A stretch of DNA of 64,000 nucleotides. Source: Spirochaeta africana DSM 8902 (GTDB lineage Bacteria > Spirochaetota > Spirochaetia > DSM-27196 > DSM-8902). Positions 6,942 through 26,938 of the stretch are shown piece after piece. The stretch's first letter is position 1. The number at the start of each line of letters is the position of its first letter. The position numbers and the translations under genes are program-made. The stretch covers positions 434,001-498,000 of the forward strand of contig NC_017098.1 in assembly GCF_000242595.2 (NCBI RefSeq), read 5' to 3'. Under the pieces are notes generated by a model. The model worked only from the letters and a program-made list of their open reading frames with translations. It was not told the origin of the DNA and ran no database searches.

Positions 6942-6963
<22 letters not shown>
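6613..6963 (+). CDS. Free-standing Hpt (histidine phosphotransfer) domain protein
   Basis: The 116-residue all-helical protein carries the Hpt signature [25 protein letters not shown], with the phospho-accepting histidine in AHSL. Such proteins shuttle phosphate between receivers in multistep phosphorelays. The start ATG overlaps the threonine aldolase stop; upstream in-frame codons belong to that gene. Its 3' end overlaps, tail to tail, the 3' end of a hybrid kinase that has its own Hpt domain. That suggests a common pathway or a shared origin, but this is inference. The usual AHxLKG glycine/lysine is replaced (VN), so its activity needs testing. Confidence 0.8.
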
Positions 6964-11470
<4,507 letters not shown>

Positions 11471-11471
<1 letters not shown>

Positions 11472-11818
11472 TACTCTGTATCCTCTTCGGACGGATCGGG
11501 GCGGCGTTCCGGAATCTGCTGAACCGGCTTGCCGGAGGCCGCAAAATCCGGCGACAGAAAAAGGCCGCAGAAACAGTGGCCGTATTCCTGCTGATCGGGG
11601 ATGTTGTAAATACAGGGGCAGATAATGTCGCGATCTGCTTCCCGCTCGCCGTCGCCATCGCGACAGGGGCACAGGAAATAACCATGGCGGTTATAGTTCT
11701 GCTGCAGCCCCTTCTCTACGGTCTGCAGGAATTCCTGGTCGGGATTGACCGCCCACCCCTGCTTGGCAGCCACACTGGTCACAAAGCGGTGTACATCCGG
11801 AAGGTCCTTTTTGCGCAT
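11471..11818 (-). CDS. Ferredoxin:thioredoxin reductase catalytic-subunit-like protein
   Basis: The 115-residue protein contains the spaced cysteine pattern of FTR beta: CPC in [12 protein letters not shown] in DIICPCIYN, then CFC in GHCFCGLF. In this family these cysteines hold a [4Fe-4S] cluster next to a redox-active disulfide that passes electrons from ferredoxin to a thioredoxin-like partner. The last motif is CFC instead of CHC. The gene lies between a glutaredoxin gene and the hybrid kinase, touching both by overlaps, so it almost certainly works with the glutaredoxin. ATG at 11818 is preferred to the TTG at 11824. Confidence 0.88.
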
Positions 11819-16194: not shown

Positions 16195-17073
16195 ATGAAC
16201 CACCGCTCACCGCATATCCGCCAGTTTGCTGTTGTTACCGGCGCCTCTGCCGGTCTCGGCCGAGCACTGGCGGTAGAAGCCGCCAGTCGGGGGTATCGCT
16301 GTATTCTGATTGCCCGCTCGAGCGAGGGGCTGCATGCCACCGCCGATACCATCCGGGCCTCCGCACCGGCGGGTCACTGGGCCGATTGTCCGGTAGTACT
16401 GCCGCTTGATCTGCTGAGTGACAGCACTGCCGCTGCCGATGCCATTCTGGATGCCTGCCGTCTGGCAGGCGGGCATGACCGCACCGGTGAGCCCAGCATT
16501 GGACTGCTGATCAACAATGCCGGCATGGCGACCCAGGGGGTGTTTGCTGCCAGCCCACCGGCTGCTGTCGCGGCACAGCTGCAGCTCAACCTCTGCACTG
16601 CGGTGCTGCTGACACGCCTGCTGCTCCCGTATATCCCGGCCGGCGGGCGGATCCTGAACATCTCCAGCACTGCCGGATTATGCCCGGGACCAGGCATGGC
16701 GGTGTATTATGCCACCAAGGCCGGGCTGACCAGCTGGAGCCGGGCCCTGGCGGTGGAGCTGAGGATGCGCCCGGTTACGGTGACCACCTTCTGCCCGGGG
16801 CCGCTGCGCACGGGGTTTGTTGCCAAGGCCGGGGTTGAGAACCGCGGCTATCTCCGTTCCGCACCAACCGCCGAGGCTGCCGCAGCTGCGGCAATGCGTC
16901 GGGCGATGGGGGCTGGCGGCATGCTGGTCTATCCCGGCAGGTTCCGGCTGCTGGCAGCCCTGCAGCATCTGGTTCCGCAGCGGCTGGCAATTGCCCTGGT
17001 GTATCGTGAGCAGCGGCGGCGTGGGGTACAGTTCGAGCAGACGGCAGCCCCTGGCGGAGCGGGCGTCGTATGA
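16195..17073 (+). CDS. Short-chain dehydrogenase/reductase
   Basis: The 292-residue Rossmann protein shows the classical SDR pattern: TGASAGLG (NAD(P) binding, residues 15-22), INNAG, ISSTAG (catalytic Ser) and YYATK (catalytic Tyr/Lys, ~171-175), then CPGPLRTGF. It resembles the SDR subgroup that reduces 3-ketoacyl chains or long-chain lipids. It is the first of three overlapping plus-strand genes with an acyltransferase-like and a zinc-ribbon membrane protein, suggesting shared work on a lipid or acyl compound (inference). The stop overlaps the next start (ATGA). Confidence 0.9.
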   Translation: MNHRSPHIRQFAVVTGASAGLGRALAVEAASRGYRCILIARSSEGLHATADTIRASAPAGHWADCPVVLPLDLLSDSTAAADAILDACRLAGGHDRTGEPSIGLLINNAGMATQGVFAASPPAAVAAQLQLNLCTAVLLTRLLLPYIPAGGRILNISSTAGLCPGPGMAVYYATKAGLTSWSRALAVELRMRPVTVTTFCPGPLRTGFVAKAGVENRGYLRSAPTAEAAAAAAMRRAMGAGGMLVYPGRFRLLAALQHLVPQRLAIALVYREQRRRGVQFEQTAAPGGAGVV

Positions 17074-18434
17074 AGCAGCCGCTGGAGTTTCGCGGGTTCC
17101 GGCATCACTCGGGGCGTCACCAGGAGGGATCGGTCTGGATGCCCCTGGACAATGCTGCCAAGATATTCCCGGCAATCCAGGGAACCCGCTATTCCACCCT
17201 GTTCCGGCTGGCGGTGGTACTGGATCATCCGGTGCGCCTGCCGCAGCTGCAGGCAGCCCTGCAGCGGGTGATGCGGCGTTATCCGTACTTTCAGGTGGAA
17301 CTGCGGCGGGGATTCTTCTGGTACTATCTCGAGCGTCTGGAGGAGGCCCCGCAGGTTATGGCCGACGGCCGTTCCCCCTGCACCCGGTATAACGTACACC
17401 GCCCGGGCGCGTACCTGCTGCGCGTGCGCGCCTGGCAGCACCGCCTGGCCGTAGAGTTTTGCCACGTGCTGACCGACGGCAGCGGTGGCGCCATGTTTCT
17501 GCGTTCGCTGGTTACCGAGTATTTTCGGCAGTGCGGAACGGACATTTCTGACTGGCTGGACATTCCGAATCCGGACACCGTGCCGCAGCCGGGCGAGTTT
17601 CAGGATGCCAATCAGATTATCGGTATCGAGGAGTTCCCGCCGCCGGTAACGCGGGGTGCGGCCTTTCATGTCTCCGGGCAGATGGTGCCGCGCCACGAGT
17701 ACCTGGTGTACAGCGGGCTTGTCTCCGTTGCCGAACTGCTGCAGCACAGCCGGAAGCTTGGGGTTACCATAACCGAGTATCTGACCGCAGCCCTGTTCTG
17801 GGCATACCAGGAGTACATCGACGACCAGCCGCCGGCACAGGCCCGGCGCTGGAAGAAGCGACCCCTGCGCATTCTGCTGCCGGTTAACCTGCGCCCCTTT
17901 TATCCTACCAACACACGGCGCAACTTCTTTGTCTTTGTCGATCCGGAAATCGACCTGCGACTGGGGCGTTATGACTTCGCGGAGCTGGCACAGCGGATCC
18001 ATGCCTATATGCAGATCGAGGTATCCCGCAAGAATCTGAATCGACATCTGTCGCGCAATGTTGGCAGCGAGCGAAACTGGTTTATCCGGCTTATTCCATT
18101 ATATCTGAAGGATCTCATTCTCAAGGTGGTGTATCGCACCTCTGCCGAGCGGATAAACAGTACCAGCCTGTCCAATCTGGGACGGCTGCAGTTCCCGGCA
18201 GAGGTGGAGCCCCATATCCGCTGGGCCGAGTTTATCCCGCCGCCGAGCCCGACCTACGGGATTTCGGCCGGTGTGGTGTCGCATAGGGAGACCCTGTGCT
18301 TTTCCTTTGGCAGTCTGCTGCAGGAAGCCGAGATTGAACGGCGGTTTTTCCGTCTGCTTCGGCGCCAGGGAATCCATGTCACCCTGAAATCCAACAAGGA
18401 GGCCGTATGCCCTACTGCTCCGAATGTGGTGTAG
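17070..18434 (+). CDS. Condensation-domain-like acyltransferase (alcohol acetyltransferase-like)
   Basis: The 454-residue protein has the HxxxDG motif of the CoA-dependent acyltransferase/NRPS condensation superfamily as HVLTDGSGG near residue 132. The N-terminal half-motif is ALQRVMRRYPYFQVELRRG, and the second lobe includes LRILLPVNLRPFYPTNTRRN. The superfamily joins activated acyl groups to alcohol or amine acceptors. Being a single domain with no carrier protein nearby, it resembles alcohol acetyltransferases, PapA or wax-ester-type enzymes. Coupled by overlaps to the SDR before it and the zinc-ribbon protein after it. The substrate is unknown. Confidence 0.72.
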   Translation: MKQPLEFRGFRHHSGRHQEGSVWMPLDNAAKIFPAIQGTRYSTLFRLAVVLDHPVRLPQLQAALQRVMRRYPYFQVELRRGFFWYYLERLEEAPQVMADGRSPCTRYNVHRPGAYLLRVRAWQHRLAVEFCHVLTDGSGGAMFLRSLVTEYFRQCGTDISDWLDIPNPDTVPQPGEFQDANQIIGIEEFPPPVTRGAAFHVSGQMVPRHEYLVYSGLVSVAELLQHSRKLGVTITEYLTAALFWAYQEYIDDQPPAQARRWKKRPLRILLPVNLRPFYPTNTRRNFFVFVDPEIDLRLGRYDFAELAQRIHAYMQIEVSRKNLNRHLSRNVGSERNWFIRLIPLYLKDLILKVVYRTSAERINSTSLSNLGRLQFPAEVEPHIRWAEFIPPPSPTYGISAGVVSHRETLCFSFGSLLQEAEIERRFFRLLRRQGIHVTLKSNKEAVCPTAPNVV

Positions 18435-19126
18435 AGGTTGACCGCTCTACCCGTACCTGTCCTCTCTGCAGTACCCCGATCTACCATGCTACCGAACCGC
18501 CGTCGGGTGAGCAGGGCTATGCTGTATCTCACGAGATCGAGGATATGCTGGCCCGAAGACCTCCGGGATATGCCAGGCGGCTGGCGGTCCAGATCCTGAC
18601 AGTCGTGTTCCTTACCCCCCTGCTGGTTGCCGCCGTCGCTGACTGGCTGGTCAGCGGTCAACTCTCCTGGTCGCTGTATGTAGGGGTTTCTATGGCCGCA
18701 TTGTGGGTATACAGTGTGGTGCCGATTCTCTTGTATCGCCGATTATGGGCAATCCTGGGTGTGTGTGTAACCATGACCGGGCTGCTGATGTGGTCGGTCG
18801 ATGTACTCGACCCGAGAACCTCCTGGTTCTGGGAGGTCGGCCTTCCGGTTATGGCAGTTATTGTGGTGGTTACTGCCGCTGTTGCGGTTTTATCGGTGCT
18901 GTCCCGCACCCGGGGTGCCAATATTGCCGGATTTATCCTGATCGGGATTGCCGTGCTGTGTGGGGCAATAGATCTGATCAGCAAGCGGTACATGCAGCTG
19001 GTCGGACCTCCCTTTACCTGGTCGCTGATTGTAGCTGCGGCGGTGGGGCCGGTTGCTCTGTTTCTGTTGTACTACCACTACGCTCTGTCGAGCCGTATCA
19101 ATCTTCGCAAGCGACTGCACCTGTAG
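18407..19126 (+). CDS. Zinc-ribbon membrane protein (DUF6320-like)
   Basis: The 239-residue protein starts with a zinc ribbon (CSECGVEVDRSTRTCPLC, residues 4-21). A soluble linker and about six hydrophobic helices follow, from residue ~58 to ~228. This pattern matches proteins annotated DUF6320 that accompany alcohol-acetyltransferase-like genes; the name is from memory. A strong AAGGAGG site lies inside the preceding gene, which it overlaps by 28 bases. It may anchor or regulate the acyltransferase at the membrane (inference). Its 3' end overlaps the convergent lipoprotein gene by 29 bases. Confidence 0.75.
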   Translation: MPYCSECGVEVDRSTRTCPLCSTPIYHATEPPSGEQGYAVSHEIEDMLARRPPGYARRLAVQILTVVFLTPLLVAAVADWLVSGQLSWSLYVGVSMAALWVYSVVPILLYRRLWAILGVCVTMTGLLMWSVDVLDPRTSWFWEVGLPVMAVIVVVTAAVAVLSVLSRTRGANIAGFILIGIAVLCGAIDLISKRYMQLVGPPFTWSLIVAAAVGPVALFLLYYHYALSSRINLRKRLHL

Positions 19127-20168
19127 TCGCGGTAATCGCGGCCTCTACAGCCTGGAGCAGCAGCCGGAGATTGACGCCCTGTTCATGATGCAGGTTGTGG
19201 TGAGCCCTGCGGATGCGTCGGAATCGGGCTTGCGGCAGACGCTCGCGAAGATAGCTGTCGTTGTAGGCATTATCCAGTACACGATCCTTGCAGGCCTGTA
19301 TCACCAGGGCAGGCACCTCCAGCGGGGGATAGCCCCGGTTGCGTTCATCCCAGCGCAGCAGGGCCCGCACCCATTCCAGGTTGACGTGCTGGCTGCGCAG
19401 GGGGTCCAGTTCAGCCAGCTGCAGATAGTACGGGTTCTCGGTACCGGACTGAGGCGAGCCGGCTATCCGGCGCAGCGGCAAGGGCCCGCTCAGGGTCATC
19501 CCGACACGTGACAGGTTCCACTGGCTGCTGCGCACCAGCGGTGCCAGCAGAATCGCCAGGTCGACGGCTCCGTTGTCCCGATAGAGGTACTCGATGATGG
19601 CCGATGCCCCGGTGCTGTGTCCGATGAGCACCAGCGGCTGCTCGGGCGGCAGCTGCAGTGCGGCCACCGCTGCCTCCAGGGCATCGGCATACTCGGCGAA
19701 ATCACCAATCCAGCCGCGCTCTCCGCCGGACAGGCCATGCCCCGGCAGGTCAAGGCTGGCAACCGGCCAGCCTGCGCCCAGCAAATGATTGATCAGCGGA
19801 GCCATCGGGCCGGCATGTTCGAGATATCCATGCAGGATCAGGATTGCCGGCACGGGGTGCCCTGCTGAATCCGGCCCGGCAGGGGCGCACGGCATCCACT
19901 GCTGCAGGAACAGCTGCTGCTGTGTGGCGGGTATCCACCCCACGCGGTGAGTGCTGCCCCCGGGCGCCAGCCCGTAGAACTCCCGGTAGGCCAGAAACAG
20001 CTCTGCATCCAGTTCATTTGCAGTTGTCGGAAAGGCGGGGGCGTGCTGACTCAGCGGCAGAAAATCCTCCCGGGTGAAGCGCGGGGGAGGAACCTCGGGA
20101 CCGGAAGGGCTGCTGGCACAGCCGAAAAGAATCATCATACAACAGCTAAGCGTGCAGCATCTGGACAT
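19098..20168 (-). CDS. Alpha/beta-hydrolase lipoprotein (monoacylglycerol-lipase-like)
   Basis: The 356-residue protein begins with a short lipoprotein signal ending LFGC. An alpha/beta hydrolase follows: oxyanion region LHGYLEHAGPM, SLDLPGHGLSGGERG, nucleophile elbow GHSTGAS, Asp in ACKDRVLDN and His in RRAHHNLHHEQG. It resembles the Hydrolase_4/monoacylglycerol lipase group and should act outside the cytoplasmic membrane on acyl esters. Its start overlaps the end of the mevalonate kinase gene by 23 bases, making it the last gene of the isoprenoid operon. It is convergent with the acyltransferase cluster, so an acyl-ester link is plausible but unproven. Confidence 0.85.
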   Translation of the reverse strand: MSRCCTLSCCMMILFGCASSPSGPEVPPPRFTREDFLPLSQHAPAFPTTANELDAELFLAYREFYGLAPGGSTHRVGWIPATQQQLFLQQWMPCAPAGPDSAGHPVPAILILHGYLEHAGPMAPLINHLLGAGWPVASLDLPGHGLSGGERGWIGDFAEYADALEAAVAALQLPPEQPLVLIGHSTGASAIIEYLYRDNGAVDLAILLAPLVRSSQWNLSRVGMTLSGPLPLRRIAGSPQSGTENPYYLQLAELDPLRSQHVNLEWVRALLRWDERNRGYPPLEVPALVIQACKDRVLDNAYNDSYLRERLPQARFRRIRRAHHNLHHEQGVNLRLLLQAVEAAITATTGAVACED

Positions 20169-21159
20169 AACAGTTCTCCTGACCGAACCGGCTTGTCAGC
20201 CGCCGGGAGATCTCCACTGTCGCCTGCTCAAGCTGTGAATTATCGGCAAACACCGCAAAGAAAGCCCCCCCGCCGCCGGCACCGCTGAGCTTGCTGCCCA
20301 GAGCTCCCAGCTGTTCGAGTTCCGAAAACAGTGTATCCAGTTCGGCGGTCGATACCCCGAGGGCTCCCAGGGCGACCTGGGCCTGGCTGGCGAGCCTGCC
20401 GATGAACGGCGGGGTAGCGGTTGTGTCCTGTATATGGGTGATGGCGCTGTCTGCGTAGTTCCCCAGCTCCTGCAGCAGCCCTTTGGTCCGGTGTGGTTCA
20501 TCTGCCAGGCGCTGGTGCACCGCAGCGACCAGCTGCCGGGTTGTGCGGGTACGAGGAATGGAACCGACCAGCAGCGGCAACTGGGGGCGCTGCAGGGGGA
20601 TACGACGCGGCAGGCCGGCCTGATCGGCCTTGCGCAGAAACCCCTGGCAGCCCCCGAATACCGCCAGCCCGGTATCTATGCCACTGGGGGTTCCGTGGAA
20701 TACCTGCTCAAGGCTGTTGGCGGCGGTCCACAGCCACTCGGCAGACGCCTCGGTACCGGCATAGCGACTGCCTGCCTGCACCAGGGCAGTGGACAGCGAT
20801 CCCGATGAGCCAAATCCCATCTCGTAGGGGACGCTGGAGGTGATTACCGCCTGACGCGGCAGATCGGTATGAAGCTTATCCCCGCGTGTCGGCGCAGAGC
20901 CGATCGCCGGGACCTCCTGCAGCAGTCGCTTCCAGAGTTCGCCAAAAACCTGATGATGTTGCGGCAGCATACCGTGAATCTGCCAGGATCCAAGCTGAAA
21001 AGAACGCGATCGCGCATCCAGTCTGGTCTCGGGGGGATTGGTCCCGATCCAGACCTGGGTTTCCAACGGCATGGCCAGCCCTACCGCCGGGTGTCCGTGG
21101 ACCGCCGCGTGTTCGCCAAACAGCAGCAGCTTGCCGTATCCGGTGCCCCAGCCTATCAT
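20146..21159 (-). CDS. mvaK1: Mevalonate kinase
   Basis: The 337-residue GHMP kinase opens with GYGKLLLFGEHAAVHGHPAV. It carries the ATP loop PYEMGFGSSGSLSTALV, then EQVFHGTPSGIDTGLAVFGG and a C-terminal SKLSGAGGGGAFFAV motif. It phosphorylates mevalonate at C5 using ATP in the cytoplasm. It overlaps mvaK2 by four bases and lies last among the six mevalonate genes. The assignment between the two kinases rests on the LFGEHAAVHG and PSGIDT motifs, which fit mevalonate kinase better than phosphomevalonate kinase. Confidence 0.93.
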   Translation of the reverse strand: MIGWGTGYGKLLLFGEHAAVHGHPAVGLAMPLETQVWIGTNPPETRLDARSRSFQLGSWQIHGMLPQHHQVFGELWKRLLQEVPAIGSAPTRGDKLHTDLPRQAVITSSVPYEMGFGSSGSLSTALVQAGSRYAGTEASAEWLWTAANSLEQVFHGTPSGIDTGLAVFGGCQGFLRKADQAGLPRRIPLQRPQLPLLVGSIPRTRTTRQLVAAVHQRLADEPHRTKGLLQELGNYADSAITHIQDTTATPPFIGRLASQAQVALGALGVSTAELDTLFSELEQLGALGSKLSGAGGGGAFFAVFADNSQLEQATVEISRRLTSRFGQENCYVQMLHA

Positions 21160-22247
21160 GGTTCCTCCGGATGCAGGCTGGACGGCAGCGGGGTTCCCGC
21201 CGGCAGCGGCAGCAGGGGTTCGGCTGCAGGTGCCGGGCGCCGGGGATGCCCGAACACCATCAGGGTTTCGCTGCCGGCCCCGACCGCTTTAACCAGGGGA
21301 ACCTCGTGCAGCTGCTGTATCAGTGTGCCTGAAGGCTCGGCCGGTACACCGATTTCCCTTCCCAGTTCGATGCCGATATCCCGTGCCCGGGATAGCAGCT
21401 GCAAGAGGTCTGCTGCCGAGGGGCGGGGCGTGTCGCAGAGTTCGGCCAGCTGACGGTGCAGCAGCACGTTACGCTGCCGCAGCTGCTCACAGCGCGCCGG
21501 GTGGCGATGCCGGAAACCGCTGTAGCCGAGAATCGATTGCGGGGTGGATACCGGTTCGGTGTTCAGCAGCCATAGTGGTGATAAAAGCGGCAGCAGCTGA
21601 GGCAGTGGTTCCCAGTCGGGGCAGTCGCCGCCGGTAAACAGTCCTGCACCACCGTACACCGCCGCGGTTACATCGTAGCCGCTGCCGCGTCCTCCCTGGA
21701 AGCGACGGTGTGCCTGCACTGCAATCCCGGTAATCCGCCGACGGTCGAAACTGCGGCTGTTCGGGTGCAGCCATGCCAGGGCGGTGCAGAACCCGACGCA
21801 TGCGGCAGCACTGGAACCGAATCCGCGCTTGCTGCCGTCGGCATGAAAGAATCTGCCAGTATCCACGGTAATGCGGGCCCCCTGCAGGGGAGCGGTTCGG
21901 CCAGCCGCTGCCGGCCAGTGCAGATCAGCCAGGCTTCCGACCGCCTGCTGCCACTCATCCAGAACCGCCGCCAGCAGCGGGCTGTCGTCGGCGGTAATCT
22001 GCTGGGGGGCGTTACATGCACTGTTGCTGCCTGGGCCGTTGCCCGCGCTGCTGCCCCAGCTGATGTCCGCACCGCTGCCCGCGCTGCTGCCCCAACTGCT
22101 GCGAAAACACAGGGTTTGCGCCGGCTCGATGAGTACGGTCGCACAGGGGTCGGCGGCGATAGCCAGCCCTGGCTGGCCCGGCTCGGTCACAAAGTACTCC
22201 CCGGTCAGCAGGAAGGAAGCGGGAACCGTAAACACAACCCTGCTCAT
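21156..22247 (-). CDS. mvaK2: Phosphomevalonate kinase with a Ser/Gly tandem insert
   Basis: The 363-residue GHMP kinase starts VVFTVPASFLLTGEYFVTEPG, carries RGFGSSAAACVGFCTALAW-like ATP loop residues and GRGSGYDVTAAVYGG, as in bacterial phosphomevalonate kinases. It converts mevalonate 5-phosphate to the diphosphate. Between residues ~50 and 80 there is a low-complexity stretch with a duplicated SWGSSAG motif. The 19-base TGCCCGCGCTGCTGCCCCA occurs at 22040-22058 and 22076-22094, in frame. This looks like a recent tandem expansion in a surface loop. Overlaps both neighbours by four bases. Confidence 0.9.
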   Translation of the reverse strand: MSRVVFTVPASFLLTGEYFVTEPGQPGLAIAADPCATVLIEPAQTLCFRSSWGSSAGSGADISWGSSAGNGPGSNSACNAPQQITADDSPLLAAVLDEWQQAVGSLADLHWPAAAGRTAPLQGARITVDTGRFFHADGSKRGFGSSAAACVGFCTALAWLHPNSRSFDRRRITGIAVQAHRRFQGGRGSGYDVTAAVYGGAGLFTGGDCPDWEPLPQLLPLLSPLWLLNTEPVSTPQSILGYSGFRHRHPARCEQLRQRNVLLHRQLAELCDTPRPSAADLLQLLSRARDIGIELGREIGVPAEPSGTLIQQLHEVPLVKAVGAGSETLMVFGHPRRPAPAAEPLLPLPAGTPLPSSLHPEEP

Positions 22248-23230
22248 GCAGATGCTCCGTTCAGTTCGGTGACCTGCGGCCCGGCGCCAACCGTAGCCTC
22301 AAGTACCGATAACGCCGGGAATTCCTGCTGCAGCCGCTGACGCAGTGCCGGCAGCTGGTCTTCGGTGGTTATCAGTTTGACCTGCGGCCCGGCATCCATG
22401 GTTTCCCAGACCTCAATCCCGTCGTCCCGCCAGCGGGCTGCCTGATGGATCAGCCGGACACTTTCCGGCAGCCAGTACACCACCCCTGGATCGGCAGCCA
22501 GCATGCTGCCGAACATCGACAGATAGCTGCGCCGCATCAGCGGACCCAGCTCATCCAGGCGGCGATTGCGCACCGCCGCAATCGTTGGCTCTACCAGTTC
22601 GTGTGAGGACGTTACCCAGGGTTCATAGTACGGGGAGGTCAGGCGGGTGCGCTCCATGGCATCCCGGCTGCCGACAGGCTTGGCACCGCTGTGGACCATA
22701 ACCACCAGAATACGCAGCTGCGGCCAGTGGGTATGGTCAAACAGCCGGGTCGCGGTCGGGGAACCGGCCGGAAAGCTGGTAAAACCGCCAAACACCGCCC
22801 GGGCAGCCGAGCCGGAACCGGTGCGGGCCAGGTCGGAAAGCTGCGAACTGTCCAGCGAAATCCCGGCAGCCCGGGATACAGCCAGCGCCAGTGCAGCAAA
22901 GCCGCTGGAAGAGCTGGCAATCCCGGCTGCCGTCGGAAAGGAGTTGCTGCTGGTGATCGTGAATTCCAGGCTGTTTGCCTGGGGGTAGCGGCTGCGAAAC
23001 TGTGCCAGGAACGAAGCAATCTTGGGATCCTGCTGCGCTTCATTGTCCAGCAGGATGGTGTCGCGCGGGCCGTTGCTGCTGGCCGGAGCGGCAACCGCCT
23101 CGGTGGTGGTGGTAAGCCCGCCCAGGCTGACCGCTATGCTGGTGGTTGCCGGGAGATTGATGCCGCCCTCAGCCTTTCCCCAATACTTGATCAGTGCCAG
23201 GCTCGGCTCGGTCTGTACCCGCACCCTCAT
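22244..23230 (-). CDS. mvaD: Diphosphomevalonate decarboxylase
   Basis: The 328-residue protein has the family-defining SLALIKYWGKAEGGINLPAT start, the ATP loop SSNSFPTAAGIASSSSGFAA and RTGSGSAARAVFGGF. It performs ATP-dependent decarboxylation of mevalonate diphosphate to isopentenyl diphosphate. The later segment TMDAGPQVKLIT carries the catalytic-site Asp-Ala-Gly motif. It is coupled by four-base overlaps to mvaA upstream and mvaK2 downstream. Confidence 0.96.
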   Translation of the reverse strand: MRVRVQTEPSLALIKYWGKAEGGINLPATTSIAVSLGGLTTTTEAVAAPASSNGPRDTILLDNEAQQDPKIASFLAQFRSRYPQANSLEFTITSSNSFPTAAGIASSSSGFAALALAVSRAAGISLDSSQLSDLARTGSGSAARAVFGGFTSFPAGSPTATRLFDHTHWPQLRILVVMVHSGAKPVGSRDAMERTRLTSPYYEPWVTSSHELVEPTIAAVRNRRLDELGPLMRRSYLSMFGSMLAADPGVVYWLPESVRLIHQAARWRDDGIEVWETMDAGPQVKLITTEDQLPALRQRLQQEFPALSVLEATVGAGPQVTELNGASA

Positions 23231-24552
23231 TCAGCGGCCTCGCTGGACCCTGGTCCTGCAGAACGCAGCTGCTGCAGCACCCGGTTGGCTGTTTCCAGGT
23301 TGAAAATCCCGGTTTCGGTAATCCCGGCAGCAACCGGCGCAATCTCGGTATCGCGTGCCCCGGCCTGATAAGCCAGTCGATGGGCATGAAACCGCATGTG
23401 CCCATGCTGGATACCCTCGGATACCAGGGCCGAGACGGCGGCAAAGTTTTGCGCCAGCCCCAGTGCGGCAGCTACCCGGCCAAGCTCACTGGCCGAGGAA
23501 ATGTCCAGAATCCGGAATGCCATATCTGCTACCGGATGAAACCCGATAGCCCCGCCAACGCTGCCAAGCGGGACCGGCAGCTCGATGCTGCCGACCAGGG
23601 CATCGTCCTCGATCCGGTAGTGACTGATGCCGCGATAGCGACCGTCGCGGGCGGCGTAGCGATGCACGGCAGCCTCCAGGCCACGGGTGTCGTTGCCGGT
23701 TGCAATTGCCAGTGCGGTGACCCCGTTCATAATCCCCTTGTTATGGGTTACGGCCCGGGATGAGTCCTCCTGTGCCAGTTCCGATGCCCGCACGATGCGT
23801 TCTGCCAGGGTGCTGCTGTCAATCCCCCGACGGCGCAGGGATTTCAGCGGCATGCGGAACTCTGCCCGGGCGTGTCGGTAGGCGGCATCGTTGGTCAGGA
23901 TGGCCATAAAGCCGCGCCCGCCGCAGTACTCCTGCAGCAGCGGTTTTACCCCCTCGGCGGCGGTGTTCAGTATGTTGGCCCCCATGGCATCGCGAACATC
24001 AATATGCAGCTGGATCCGCAGCAAGCCGGTTTCGGGCAGCAGGGCTGCATCGCAGCCGCGATAACCCCCGCCACGAGCGGTCATGCCCGGCAGCATGGTG
24101 TCGATGGCGCTGCGCAGCAGTGCATCAAGCTCTTTCGGGGCAGCCGGGGCATCCGGGGAAGCCCCCCCGCACACAGCCGCGGCACGATCGGCCGGCACAT
24201 CCTCCAGGAATACCTGTGCGGTCATGATCGGCTGGTCGATGCTGGTGGTAAACCCGCCGGAACGGGCAATCAGTTTGGCGCCGTAGGTAGCAGCCGCAAT
24301 TACCGAGGGCTCCTCGGTTGCCATCGGGATGTTGTATTCCCGGCCATCGATCAGTACCCCGCCGGCTACACCCAGCGGCAGGGGAACAAACCCTGCTGCT
24401 GATTCCACCATGACATCGGCCAGATCCAGCAGCTCCTCTTCATGGCCGCTGCCATCGAGCTGCTGCGGGGTCAGTTCGTAGATGCGGGCAAGCATCTCGC
24501 GCCGCTCGCGTATGGTAAGCTTTCGAAAATCTGCGGGGAGGCGATAATCCAT
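23227..24552 (-). CDS. mvaA: Hydroxymethylglutaryl-CoA reductase (class II type)
   Basis: The 441-residue protein shows the class II HMG-CoA reductase motifs: PLGVAGGVLIDGREYNIPMA, the catalytic Glu in MATEEPSVIAA, Lys in THNKGIMNG, Asp in ATGNDTRGLEA and a His near GHMRFHAHRL. It reduces HMG-CoA to mevalonate. Class II enzymes are soluble and include both degradative and biosynthetic members; here the operon context says biosynthesis. Separated by nine bases from fni. Confidence 0.96.
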   Translation of the reverse strand: MDYRLPADFRKLTIRERREMLARIYELTPQQLDGSGHEEELLDLADVMVESAAGFVPLPLGVAGGVLIDGREYNIPMATEEPSVIAAATYGAKLIARSGGFTTSIDQPIMTAQVFLEDVPADRAAAVCGGASPDAPAAPKELDALLRSAIDTMLPGMTARGGGYRGCDAALLPETGLLRIQLHIDVRDAMGANILNTAAEGVKPLLQEYCGGRGFMAILTNDAAYRHARAEFRMPLKSLRRRGIDSSTLAERIVRASELAQEDSSRAVTHNKGIMNGVTALAIATGNDTRGLEAAVHRYAARDGRYRGISHYRIEDDALVGSIELPVPLGSVGGAIGFHPVADMAFRILDISSASELGRVAAALGLAQNFAAVSALVSEGIQHGHMRFHAHRLAYQAGARDTEIAPVAAGITETGIFNLETANRVLQQLRSAGPGSSEAAE

Positions 24553-24561
24553 AGTCGCTCC

Positions 24562-25668
24562 TTATTCTGAGAGTCGTGTGTTCCATTCTGCAGCGCCGGC
24601 CGAAAAACGGCTGGTATCGGCAGTCAGACGGTCACTGAGCCAGACCGGCCCGCGGCGGAATTCCTGCAGACTGCTGGCGCCAGTCAGCGCCATTGCCGCG
24701 AGGAAAACCCGGCGAACCTGCCGGATTACCTTGCAGGCACCCTCGGTGCCCTCGGCGTGTACCGCCCTGATAAATGGCAGTGCAAACCCTGCCGCCTCTG
24801 CTCCCAGGGCAACTGCCTTGGCGATATCCAGCCCGCTGCGCAGTCCGCCGCTTGCCAGTATCCGTCCCTGCAGATGCTGCTGTTCCCGGGCGGCCGCCAG
24901 CAGCAGTCCGGTCGGCATCCCCCAGTCGCGGAATTCCTCGGCTGCAGCAAACATCGCCGGGTCCTCCCGGTAGGACTCTACGGTGATCCAGTTGGTTCCC
25001 CCGGCTCCGGCAATATTGACATAGCGAACCCCGCTGTCGATCAGGGCTGCGGCGGTTGCCGGATCGATGCCGAATCCGGTTTCCTTAACGATAACCGGTA
25101 CCGGGCTATGTTCGCAGAAACGTCGGATTGCGTCGATCACCCCGCGAAAATCCCGGTCGCCTCCTGTCTGAAACAGCTCCTGTCCCGGGTTCAGGTGGAT
25201 AGCCAGCGCCGAGACCTCCAGACGCTGCAGTACGGTATGGATATCCGAATGCTGCATATCCCGGATCTGAACCCCGCCCAGATTGGCAAAAATCGGTACA
25301 TCCGGTGCCAGTTTTCGCAGATAGAAATGCTCGAACACCTCGGGCTTGCGAAACAGAATGCGGATTGAACCCATGCCAACCGCAATCCGTTCCTGCTGGG
25401 CGGCCATCGCCAGCTGCTTGTTGGCCTCGTAGCCGCGGGCCGACCCCCCGGTCATGCTGGAAATAAAGAACGGCAGGCTGACCCGCTGCCCCAGGAAATC
25501 CATGCTGGTGTCTATGGCATCAACATTTACCTCCGGTGCAGCGGCATGCAGAAAGCGCACCTCATCAAGGCGGGTAGAGCCGGACTCCACCCGGTAACTA
25601 TCAGCCTCGACACATATATCGAGGTGCTGAGCCTTGCGGGTGCTGATGTCGTGCGCCTTATCCGCCAT
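24562..25668 (-). CDS. fni: Type 2 isopentenyl-diphosphate delta-isomerase
   Basis: This FMN-dependent TIM-barrel enzyme interconverts IPP and DMAPP. Motifs include ISTRKAQHLDIC, LPFFISSMTGGSARGY, VIVKETGFGIDP and NIAGAGGTNWITVE. ATG at 25668 is preferred because type 2 isomerases begin shortly before the RKxxHL motif; ATGs at 25692 and 25716 are alternatives that overlap mvaS further. With this start the protein is 368 residues. No type 1 isomerase is seen. Confidence 0.93.
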   Translation of the reverse strand: MADKAHDISTRKAQHLDICVEADSYRVESGSTRLDEVRFLHAAAPEVNVDAIDTSMDFLGQRVSLPFFISSMTGGSARGYEANKQLAMAAQQERIAVGMGSIRILFRKPEVFEHFYLRKLAPDVPIFANLGGVQIRDMQHSDIHTVLQRLEVSALAIHLNPGQELFQTGGDRDFRGVIDAIRRFCEHSPVPVIVKETGFGIDPATAAALIDSGVRYVNIAGAGGTNWITVESYREDPAMFAAAEEFRDWGMPTGLLLAAAREQQHLQGRILASGGLRSGLDIAKAVALGAEAAGFALPFIRAVHAEGTEGACKVIRQVRRVFLAAMALTGASSLQEFRRGPVWLSDRLTADTSRFSAGAAEWNTRLSE

Positions 25669-26938
25669 GGAAGCTGTACTCTCTGTAGCCATCCTCGCGT
25701 ACCGAGTCCAGTGCAAACATTCCTGCCGGAATATCTGCTGCCTCCAGACGCTGGTTCAGCGCTTCGCGCTCGGTTGGCGTCGCCAGCCAGGCCAGATAGG
25801 CATCCAGATTCTCCGGTTGTTCGTGATCCCAGATAGCATCCAGGTTCCAGCCCGATATCACCGCGGGTGCCCCGGCGGCTACCGTTGCGCGGAAGACCAG
25901 CATGGTATTGCCCGAGCCATAGCTGGCAATCATTACATTCTTGCCGACAAGCTCCGTGCCAAGTGTCTGGTAGCGCTCCTGCAGAGCGAATGTCATGGCC
26001 AGATACGCAGAGCCGGAGTAGATGTTCCCGACCCGGGTCGAGGCCTCGAGGGACTGCTGGAAGCCGCGTTCGCGCAGGAATCCGGCTGCCTGTTCCTCGT
26101 CCATGTCGAGATGTTTCTCTACTGCTTTGGTAAGGGCGGTCAGGGCCATGTTCTTGAACGGTACATGCAGTACGAAGATCTCGGTCTCCCGCAGGGCCTG
26201 TGCCGGGGTGATACCCAGACGCTCGGCATGGTCTGCCAGGGCGCCATCGAATGCCTCGTGGTAGCACTGCACCGAGTAGCTGCCTTTGACCTTGGCAGTG
26301 GTGCTGCCCAGCGGGCGGAAAAAATCGTCGACATCATTGGAACAATACCCGGTAGAGGCCAGATCAAACTCCAGCAGCTCGGGGTTGCGCTCCATATGCA
26401 TGGCCACTGCCCCGGCTCCCTGGGTGATCTCTGCCGTGGAGGGTGCGTCGTAGCGGGCGATATCGGAGCAGACTACCAGGCCGGCATCGCCATCGCGTCC
26501 GCCCGCCTGCAGCAGCGCCCCGATCCCAAGCAGCGAAACCGTGCCGCCGGCACAGGCGTGCTGCACCTGAAAGCTGCTGAGGGTATTGCCTACGGCAACG
26601 CCGCTGCGCTGCAGCATCCCCTGCAGGTAGGCCGCTATCGGTTTGGAATGGTCAACGGCGGTTTCGGTGCCTACTGCAATATAGCGCAGTTTATCCGGAT
26701 TCTTGTCGCCGCGACGGACATACAGGTCACGGGCAGCAGCTGCCGCGAGGGTAGAATTGTCCTGAAACGGCAGCGGGAACCGGATGGCCTGCTGCCCGGT
26801 TACCTCGATCGCTCGTTGCAGCTTGCGTTCCGGAAACTCGTCGTGCTGAACGCGAAACTCCATCAAACGATCAAGGGATATCTTGCCGGGAGGAATATAC
26901 AGCTGGATATCACTGATTCCTACGCTGGCTGTACTCAT
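25658..26938 (-). CDS. mvaS: Hydroxymethylglutaryl-CoA synthase
   Basis: The 426-residue thiolase-fold protein starts VGISDIQLYIPPGKISLDRL. It has the nucleophilic Cys129 in QHACAGGTVSLLG, the general-base region and YCSNDVDDFFRPLG. It condenses acetyl-CoA with acetoacetyl-CoA to HMG-CoA. It is the first mevalonate gene, with AAGGAG upstream of the ATG. The 44-base gap to the gene before it has no obvious terminator, so the operon may begin further upstream. No acetoacetyl-CoA thiolase gene is in the window; the acetoacetyl-CoA source must be elsewhere. Confidence 0.95.
   Translation of the reverse strand: MSTASVGISDIQLYIPPGKISLDRLMEFRVQHDEFPERKLQRAIEVTGQQAIRFPLPFQDNSTLAAAAARDLYVRRGDKNPDKLRYIAVGTETAVDHSKPIAAYLQGMLQRSGVAVGNTLSSFQVQHACAGGTVSLLGIGALLQAGGRDGDAGLVVCSDIARYDAPSTAEITQGAGAVAMHMERNPELLEFDLASTGYCSNDVDDFFRPLGSTTAKVKGSYSVQCYHEAFDGALADHAERLGITPAQALRETEIFVLHVPFKNMALTALTKAVEKHLDMDEEQAAGFLRERGFQQSLEASTRVGNIYSGSAYLAMTFALQERYQTLGTELVGKNVMIASYGSGNTMLVFRATVAAGAPAVISGWNLDAIWDHEQPENLDAYLAWLATPTEREALNQRLEAADIPAGMFALDSVREDGYREYSFHGG

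Follow-up and report, generated by a model that had tools for sequence, protein, structure and literature searches.

The products of mycobacterial PapA enzymes are passed across the membrane by membrane partners. The yeast enzymes Atf2 and Say1 form a cycle in which sterols are acetylated by the former and deacetylated by the latter (PMC4076087). For BipL of Pseudomonas aeruginosa, lipase activity was not detected in vitro (PMC10597414). The literature searched, which had most subscription journals outside it, yielded no paper on DUF6320 (PF19845), and none on an alcohol acetyltransferase with a zinc ribbon or in a spirochaete operon.

The window analysed here is a 64,000-nt stretch of Spirochaeta africana DSM 8902 (NC_017098.1, forward-strand positions 434,001 to 498,000). 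The initial annotation described three overlapping plus-strand genes facing a hydrolase gene joined to a mevalonate operon, and the ORF coordinates and overlaps agree with this arrangement. The first gene (16195-17073, plus strand) encodes a 292-residue SDR-family oxidoreductase with TGxxxGxG and YxxxK motifs; it matches adh_short PF00106 (E 4e-35) and many SDR models, the latter far under their cut-offs. Its ORF shares a 4-nt ATGA overlap with that of the first core gene (17070-18434, plus strand), which encodes a 454-residue HxxxDG-type soluble acyltransferase, referred to as AT. The second core gene (18407-19126, plus strand) overlaps the AT gene by 28 nt, is preceded by AAGGAGG, and encodes a 239-residue DUF6320-related membrane protein. 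It meets, tail to tail and with a 29-nt overlap, the minus-strand gene (19098-20168) of a 356-residue alpha/beta hydrolase, a possible lipoprotein. The hydrolase has a GHSTG nucleophile elbow and matches Hydrolase_4 PF12146 (E 2.3e-34), not PF10340 or PF07859. Against the BipL model NF052543 it scores 153.1 bits over 285 residues and does not reach the cut-off of 450. Its N-terminus has a short hydrophobic stretch ending in LFGC, which we take to be a plausible, non-canonical lipobox. The hydrolase gene is the last of the mevalonate run and overlaps by 23 nt the mevalonate kinase gene (at 20146). In the rest of the run (20146-26938, minus strand), MK, PMK-like, MVD, HMGR, IDI2, and HMGS genes were recognized by NCBIfam and Pfam matches. 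This run is a neighbour and lies outside the conserved core. Promoter and terminator counts were no better than those of shuffled sequence. Elsewhere in the window, positions 6942-11672 encode a 1576-residue protein that, judged by its translation, is a hybrid sensor kinase; its N-terminal half is repetitive and propeller-like, and it has segments resembling receivers.

AT has no Pfam or NCBIfam match of its own, and searching solved structures by sequence turned up nothing credible for either the AT or the DUF6320 alignment. We built an AF2 model of AT from 54 aligned sequences (mean pLDDT 91.2, pTM 0.90), and the predicted model has the two-lobed fold of CoA-dependent acyltransferases. The best structural match is AzeD (8s6l; Z 30.7, rmsd 3.2, 374 residues). 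PapA5 (1q9j) aligns over 345 residues with a Z of 26.8 and an rmsd of 3.4, and its Foldseek E is 1.5e-16; the wax synthase WS/DGAT (6chj) has a Z of 24.4, and NRPS condensation domains and isochorismoyl-glutamate lyase are also among the matches. The label condensation-like, which the protein had been given in the initial annotation, is thus borne out by the predicted fold and its matches to PapA5, condensation domains, and wax synthases. The HxxxDG motif is intact, with His132 and Asp136 invariant in the 54 sequences and Gly137 conserved in at least 90%. The window AT has no match to the alcohol acetyltransferase (AATase) profile PF07247, and the AT relatives scanned match it with an E of about 4e-4 and at most 19.6 bits, not reaching the cut-off of 22. 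The fold and motif point to a putative acyl-transferring HxxxDG enzyme of the PapA/condensation/wax-synthase superfamily.

The 239-residue protein was aptly labelled as a zinc-ribbon membrane protein, as it has a CxxC...CxxC ribbon followed by six membrane helices. It matches DUF6320 PF19845 over 106 residues with an E of 6.3e-5 and 23.3 bits, and is called DUF6320-related because this score is under the curated cut-off of 29.9; its score against Zn_Ribbon_1 is 19.7 bits, the cut-off being 25. The Pfam DUF6320 search of the window's own genome gave no match, and the controls were equally silent. In 45 sequences of the linked DUF6320 family, the N-terminal Cys4 ribbon (Cys4, Cys7, Cys18, and Cys21), Trp88, and Trp205 are invariant, and Trp140 is conserved in at least 90%. 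The AF2 model has six long helices (pLDDT 89.7). Basic residues cluster ahead of TM1, in the loops joining TM2 to TM3 and TM4 to TM5, and at the C-terminus. This positive-inside pattern puts both termini on the cytoplasmic side and the three loops with the conserved Trp residues on the outer side; hence, the Cys4 zinc ribbon is probably cytoplasmic. Hairpins one and three appear to be homologues, with an hhalign probability of 89%, and the comparisons of hairpin two gave only 3% and 20%. No PDB chain matched the model in Foldseek with an E up to 0.001, and the best VIA Z among the 297 chains aligned is 7.8, which is under the tool's informative level for helical bundles. In four loci (L028, L029, L030, and L031), DUF6320 has about 290-300 residues, and the inserted stretch repeats the W-S hairpin pattern.

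We inspected the neighbourhood in 100 loci, 20 from the genomes of the window and its relatives and 80 from named genomes, the latter being the best 80 of 463 by similarity to the window AT, a choice that favours conserved context. AT is present in all 100 loci and AT together with DUF6320 in 99, with a median gap of 1 nt. The sole locus without DUF6320 (L036) is a 3.1-kb contig ending just after the AT gene. Among 61 relatives' genomes of the window's order and class, AT was found in 37 and DUF6320, at E below 1e-15, in 35. The two discordant genomes (G039 and G040) have partial AT matches only; weak DUF6320-like matches with E above 1e-4 (G039 and G054) were left uncounted. DUF6320 lies upstream of AT, not downstream, in one genome (G051). 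Three of 36 refetched places, all from distant class relatives (L123, L130, and L132), have AT with no DUF6320 adjacent to it, and DUF6320 is encoded elsewhere in the genome. DUF6320 is also missing from L136, where AT is at the contig end, and from L168, where the AT match is weak and doubtful. The conserved unit is the pair of AT and DUF6320, not the four-gene cluster, and its conservation rules out that either gene is a chance ORF. The two genes remain linked in Spirochaetota, Bacteroidota, and Bacillota alike and hence probably work as one machine. The four genes had been proposed as a group that could act together; the survey does not support them as one conserved pathway, as tight linkage was found only for AT and the zinc-ribbon gene. 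The four-gene cluster was rejected as a candidate unit, the window SDR being matched in six and the hydrolase in one of the 100 loci with the window's own place included.

An AT match was found in 51 of 148 Clostridia genomes drawn, the last few being weak, and all 30 Clostridia loci listed have DUF6320, in one case as a fusion with AT. In 148 evenly drawn Bacteroidota genomes there are two matches, namely that of the seed genome itself and a weak one with an E of 4e-5; the pair is therefore patchy in this phylum. On the AT tree of 69 rows, the distribution of the three phyla requires two changes, the smallest possible number. A single branch sets off Bacteroidota and another one Bacillota (SH-aLRT 100 and 99, respectively), and the rows nearest to the window AT are from Spirochaetota. 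This topology indicates that the pair is probably old and largely inherited, mainly through vertical retention and not through one recent transfer. Two further arrangements were observed around the pair. One locus (L043:7959-10637) has two AT genes in tandem followed by one DUF6320 gene. A cluster of proteins of about 215 residues occurs in 33 loci (e.g. L096:10186-10833), mostly convergent with DUF6320, and the member scanned is Rce1-like (CAAX-protease-like).

The SDR and the hydrolase of the window are found beside the pair less often. An SDR gene lies nearby on the strand of AT in seven of the 36 refetched places, from some members of the window's order, mostly with a gene in between; in L118, L119, L120, and L125, a gene of 358-360 residues separates SDR and AT. 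The upstream flank genes scanned at two places, L019 (the same as L118) and L003 (the same as L102), encode class II aldolases; the one at L019 is the gene that separates SDR and AT, and no SDR is labelled at L003. Upstream at L119 is a PAS kinase resembling that of the window. In the 36 refetched places, the window hydrolase has one weak match of 53 bits (L109), which is not beside the pair.

Esterases of another type do adjoin the pair. Say1/HSL-like esterases occupy nine of 193 adjacent slots and none of 777 further slots in the flanks of the 100 loci, as searched with an Abhydrolase_3/Say1-like profile that had five of the nine as its seeds and hence is not position-blind. The Fisher p is 4e-7 with kinship ignored, three of the nine being from Chitinophaga. 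The neighbouring esterases exceed the cut-off of the Steryl acetyl hydrolase profile. A separate esterase gene is present in eight of the 30 Clostridia loci listed (one of which, L138, is L066 of the first set). In a ninth, a Say1/HSL-type esterase and AT share one 737-residue frame and DUF6320 is separate (L146:562-2772). The other fusion joins AT and DUF6320 in 637 residues (L165:1492-3402); it apparently lacks the zinc ribbon, as the HMM match starts at position 40, and the ribbon is thus dispensable in some cases. Each fusion comes from a single genome, and neither recurs as a single frame in the relatives searched, i.e. the families of G073 (four genomes) and G159 (36 genomes). Most loci have no adjacent esterase, and the hydrolase of the window belongs to a different family. 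The earlier suggestion that the locus could build and release an acylated lipid or alcohol survives in part: putative ester chemistry at the membrane and the recurrence of AT with a hydrolase in relatives agree with it, but one conserved four-gene pathway is not supported.

We consider that the core could be a two-protein membrane acyltransferase, in which the HxxxDG enzyme is docked by the DUF6320-related protein, and we put the chance of this at about even. With its catalytic histidine, the soluble enzyme would acylate an alcohol at the expense of a thioester donor, either CoA or a carrier protein. The DUF6320-related protein would anchor AT on the inside of the cytoplasmic membrane, with its zinc ribbon pointing into the cytoplasm and its six-helix body holding or handing over a lipidic acceptor or product. 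The alpha/beta hydrolase often encoded alongside would remove or trim the ester. In the window, the place of the esterase might be taken by the BipL-like hydrolase, and the hydroxyl acceptor might arise from ketone reduction by the SDR. The reading of a docked enzyme is supported by the linkage, the tree, the fusions, the adjacent esterases, the fold and motif, and the N-in/C-in topology. Counting against it are the single genome behind each fusion, the apparent loss of the ribbon in the AT-DUF6320 fusion, the three places where AT stands apart from DUF6320, the low share of loci with an esterase, and the choice of loci by similarity to the window AT. The system is best described as a putative membrane-docked O-acyltransferase, which is sometimes paired with an esterase.

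Other roles can be assigned to both proteins. DUF6320 might be an exporter or flippase that takes a small molecule, once AT has acylated it in the cytoplasm, across the membrane, much as the membrane partners of mycobacterial PapA enzymes handle their products. The six-helix body, the conserved Trp residues on the predicted outer face, the homology of hairpins one and three, and the one-to-one pairing with a PapA-fold enzyme are all in line with this role, but the protein is small and resembles no known transporter fold convincingly, and the role would leave the zinc ribbon unexplained; we therefore regard an exporter as rather unlikely. The actual reaction of AT might also be that of a dehydratase, a lyase, or another enzyme on the same fold, considering that AzeD, its best match, is titled dehydratase and that isochorismoyl-glutamate lyase matches as well. 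Most of the structural matches, however, are acyl-transferring or condensing enzymes, the HxxxDG motif is intact, and the neighbouring esterases fit ester chemistry, which makes a reaction other than acyl transfer very unlikely.

The gene order raises the question of whether the acceptor is a prenyl alcohol or another isoprenoid, the locus then being a branch of the mevalonate operon. Besides the window, DUF6320 converges directly on mevalonate kinase in eight of the 36 refetched places, which belong to three further families of the window's order (f2, f3, and f8). The genes are convergent and not co-transcribed, and this shared synteny need not entail a shared function. Moreover, no HMGR match was found in eight of the 37 AT-positive relatives, among which G023 may be incomplete, or in 17 of the 18 named genomes that have AT. 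Of the 24 AT-negative relatives, in turn, 19 match HMGR with an E below 1e-20. An isoprenoid acceptor is on these grounds highly improbable, and the isoprenoid link entertained in the initial annotation comes down to synteny in one order. Mevalonate was also weighed as a functional partner, a candidacy weakened by the AT-positive genomes with no HMGR match and the AT-negative ones with HMGR. A bolder extension of the docked O-acyltransferase would join esterase, AT, and DUF6320 in a bacterial cycle that adds and removes esters at the membrane. Such a cycle would correspond to yeast Atf2/Say1 and be present in three phyla, and DUF6320 would dock the enzyme and move the acylated alcohol or present the acceptor across the membrane. 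We consider this full cycle distinctly unlikely.

The fold of AT is known, and what appears to be new is its constant association with a zinc-ribbon membrane protein, of which the literature searched gave no description. The occurrence of the pair across Spirochaetota, Bacteroidota, and Bacillota, with an AT match in about a third of the Clostridia drawn, implies a shared modification of lipids or small molecules, and our searches yielded no published function for it. If the ester cycle were true, many Clostridia (judging by the 51 of 148 drawn that match AT) would have a lipid-modification system not yet described. The unit to study is the AT + DUF6320 pair, now defined as a candidate complex, and not the four-gene cluster or the mevalonate link.

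Compared with the known systems, the window's membrane protein is like DUF6320 PF19845 in the 106-residue match and differs in being under the curated cut-off. Its hydrolase is an alpha/beta hydrolase as BipL is, but scores far under the 450-bit cut-off of the BipL model. The likeness to Atf2/Say1 consists in the weak matches of AT relatives to the AATase profile and in the matches of the neighbouring esterases to the Steryl acetyl hydrolase profile. The window's hydrolase is, in contrast, of the Hydrolase_4/BipL type and not of the Say1/HSL type, and a zinc-ribbon membrane partner is added; the pair resembles the Atf2/Say1 scheme at most, and we do not claim membership. With the superfamily of PapA5, condensation domains, wax synthases, BAHD enzymes, and AATase, AT shares the fold over about 320-380 residues and the HxxxDG motif. 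It differs from these enzymes in forming a family of its own, with about 9-18% identity in structural alignments, and in being paired with a zinc-ribbon membrane protein.
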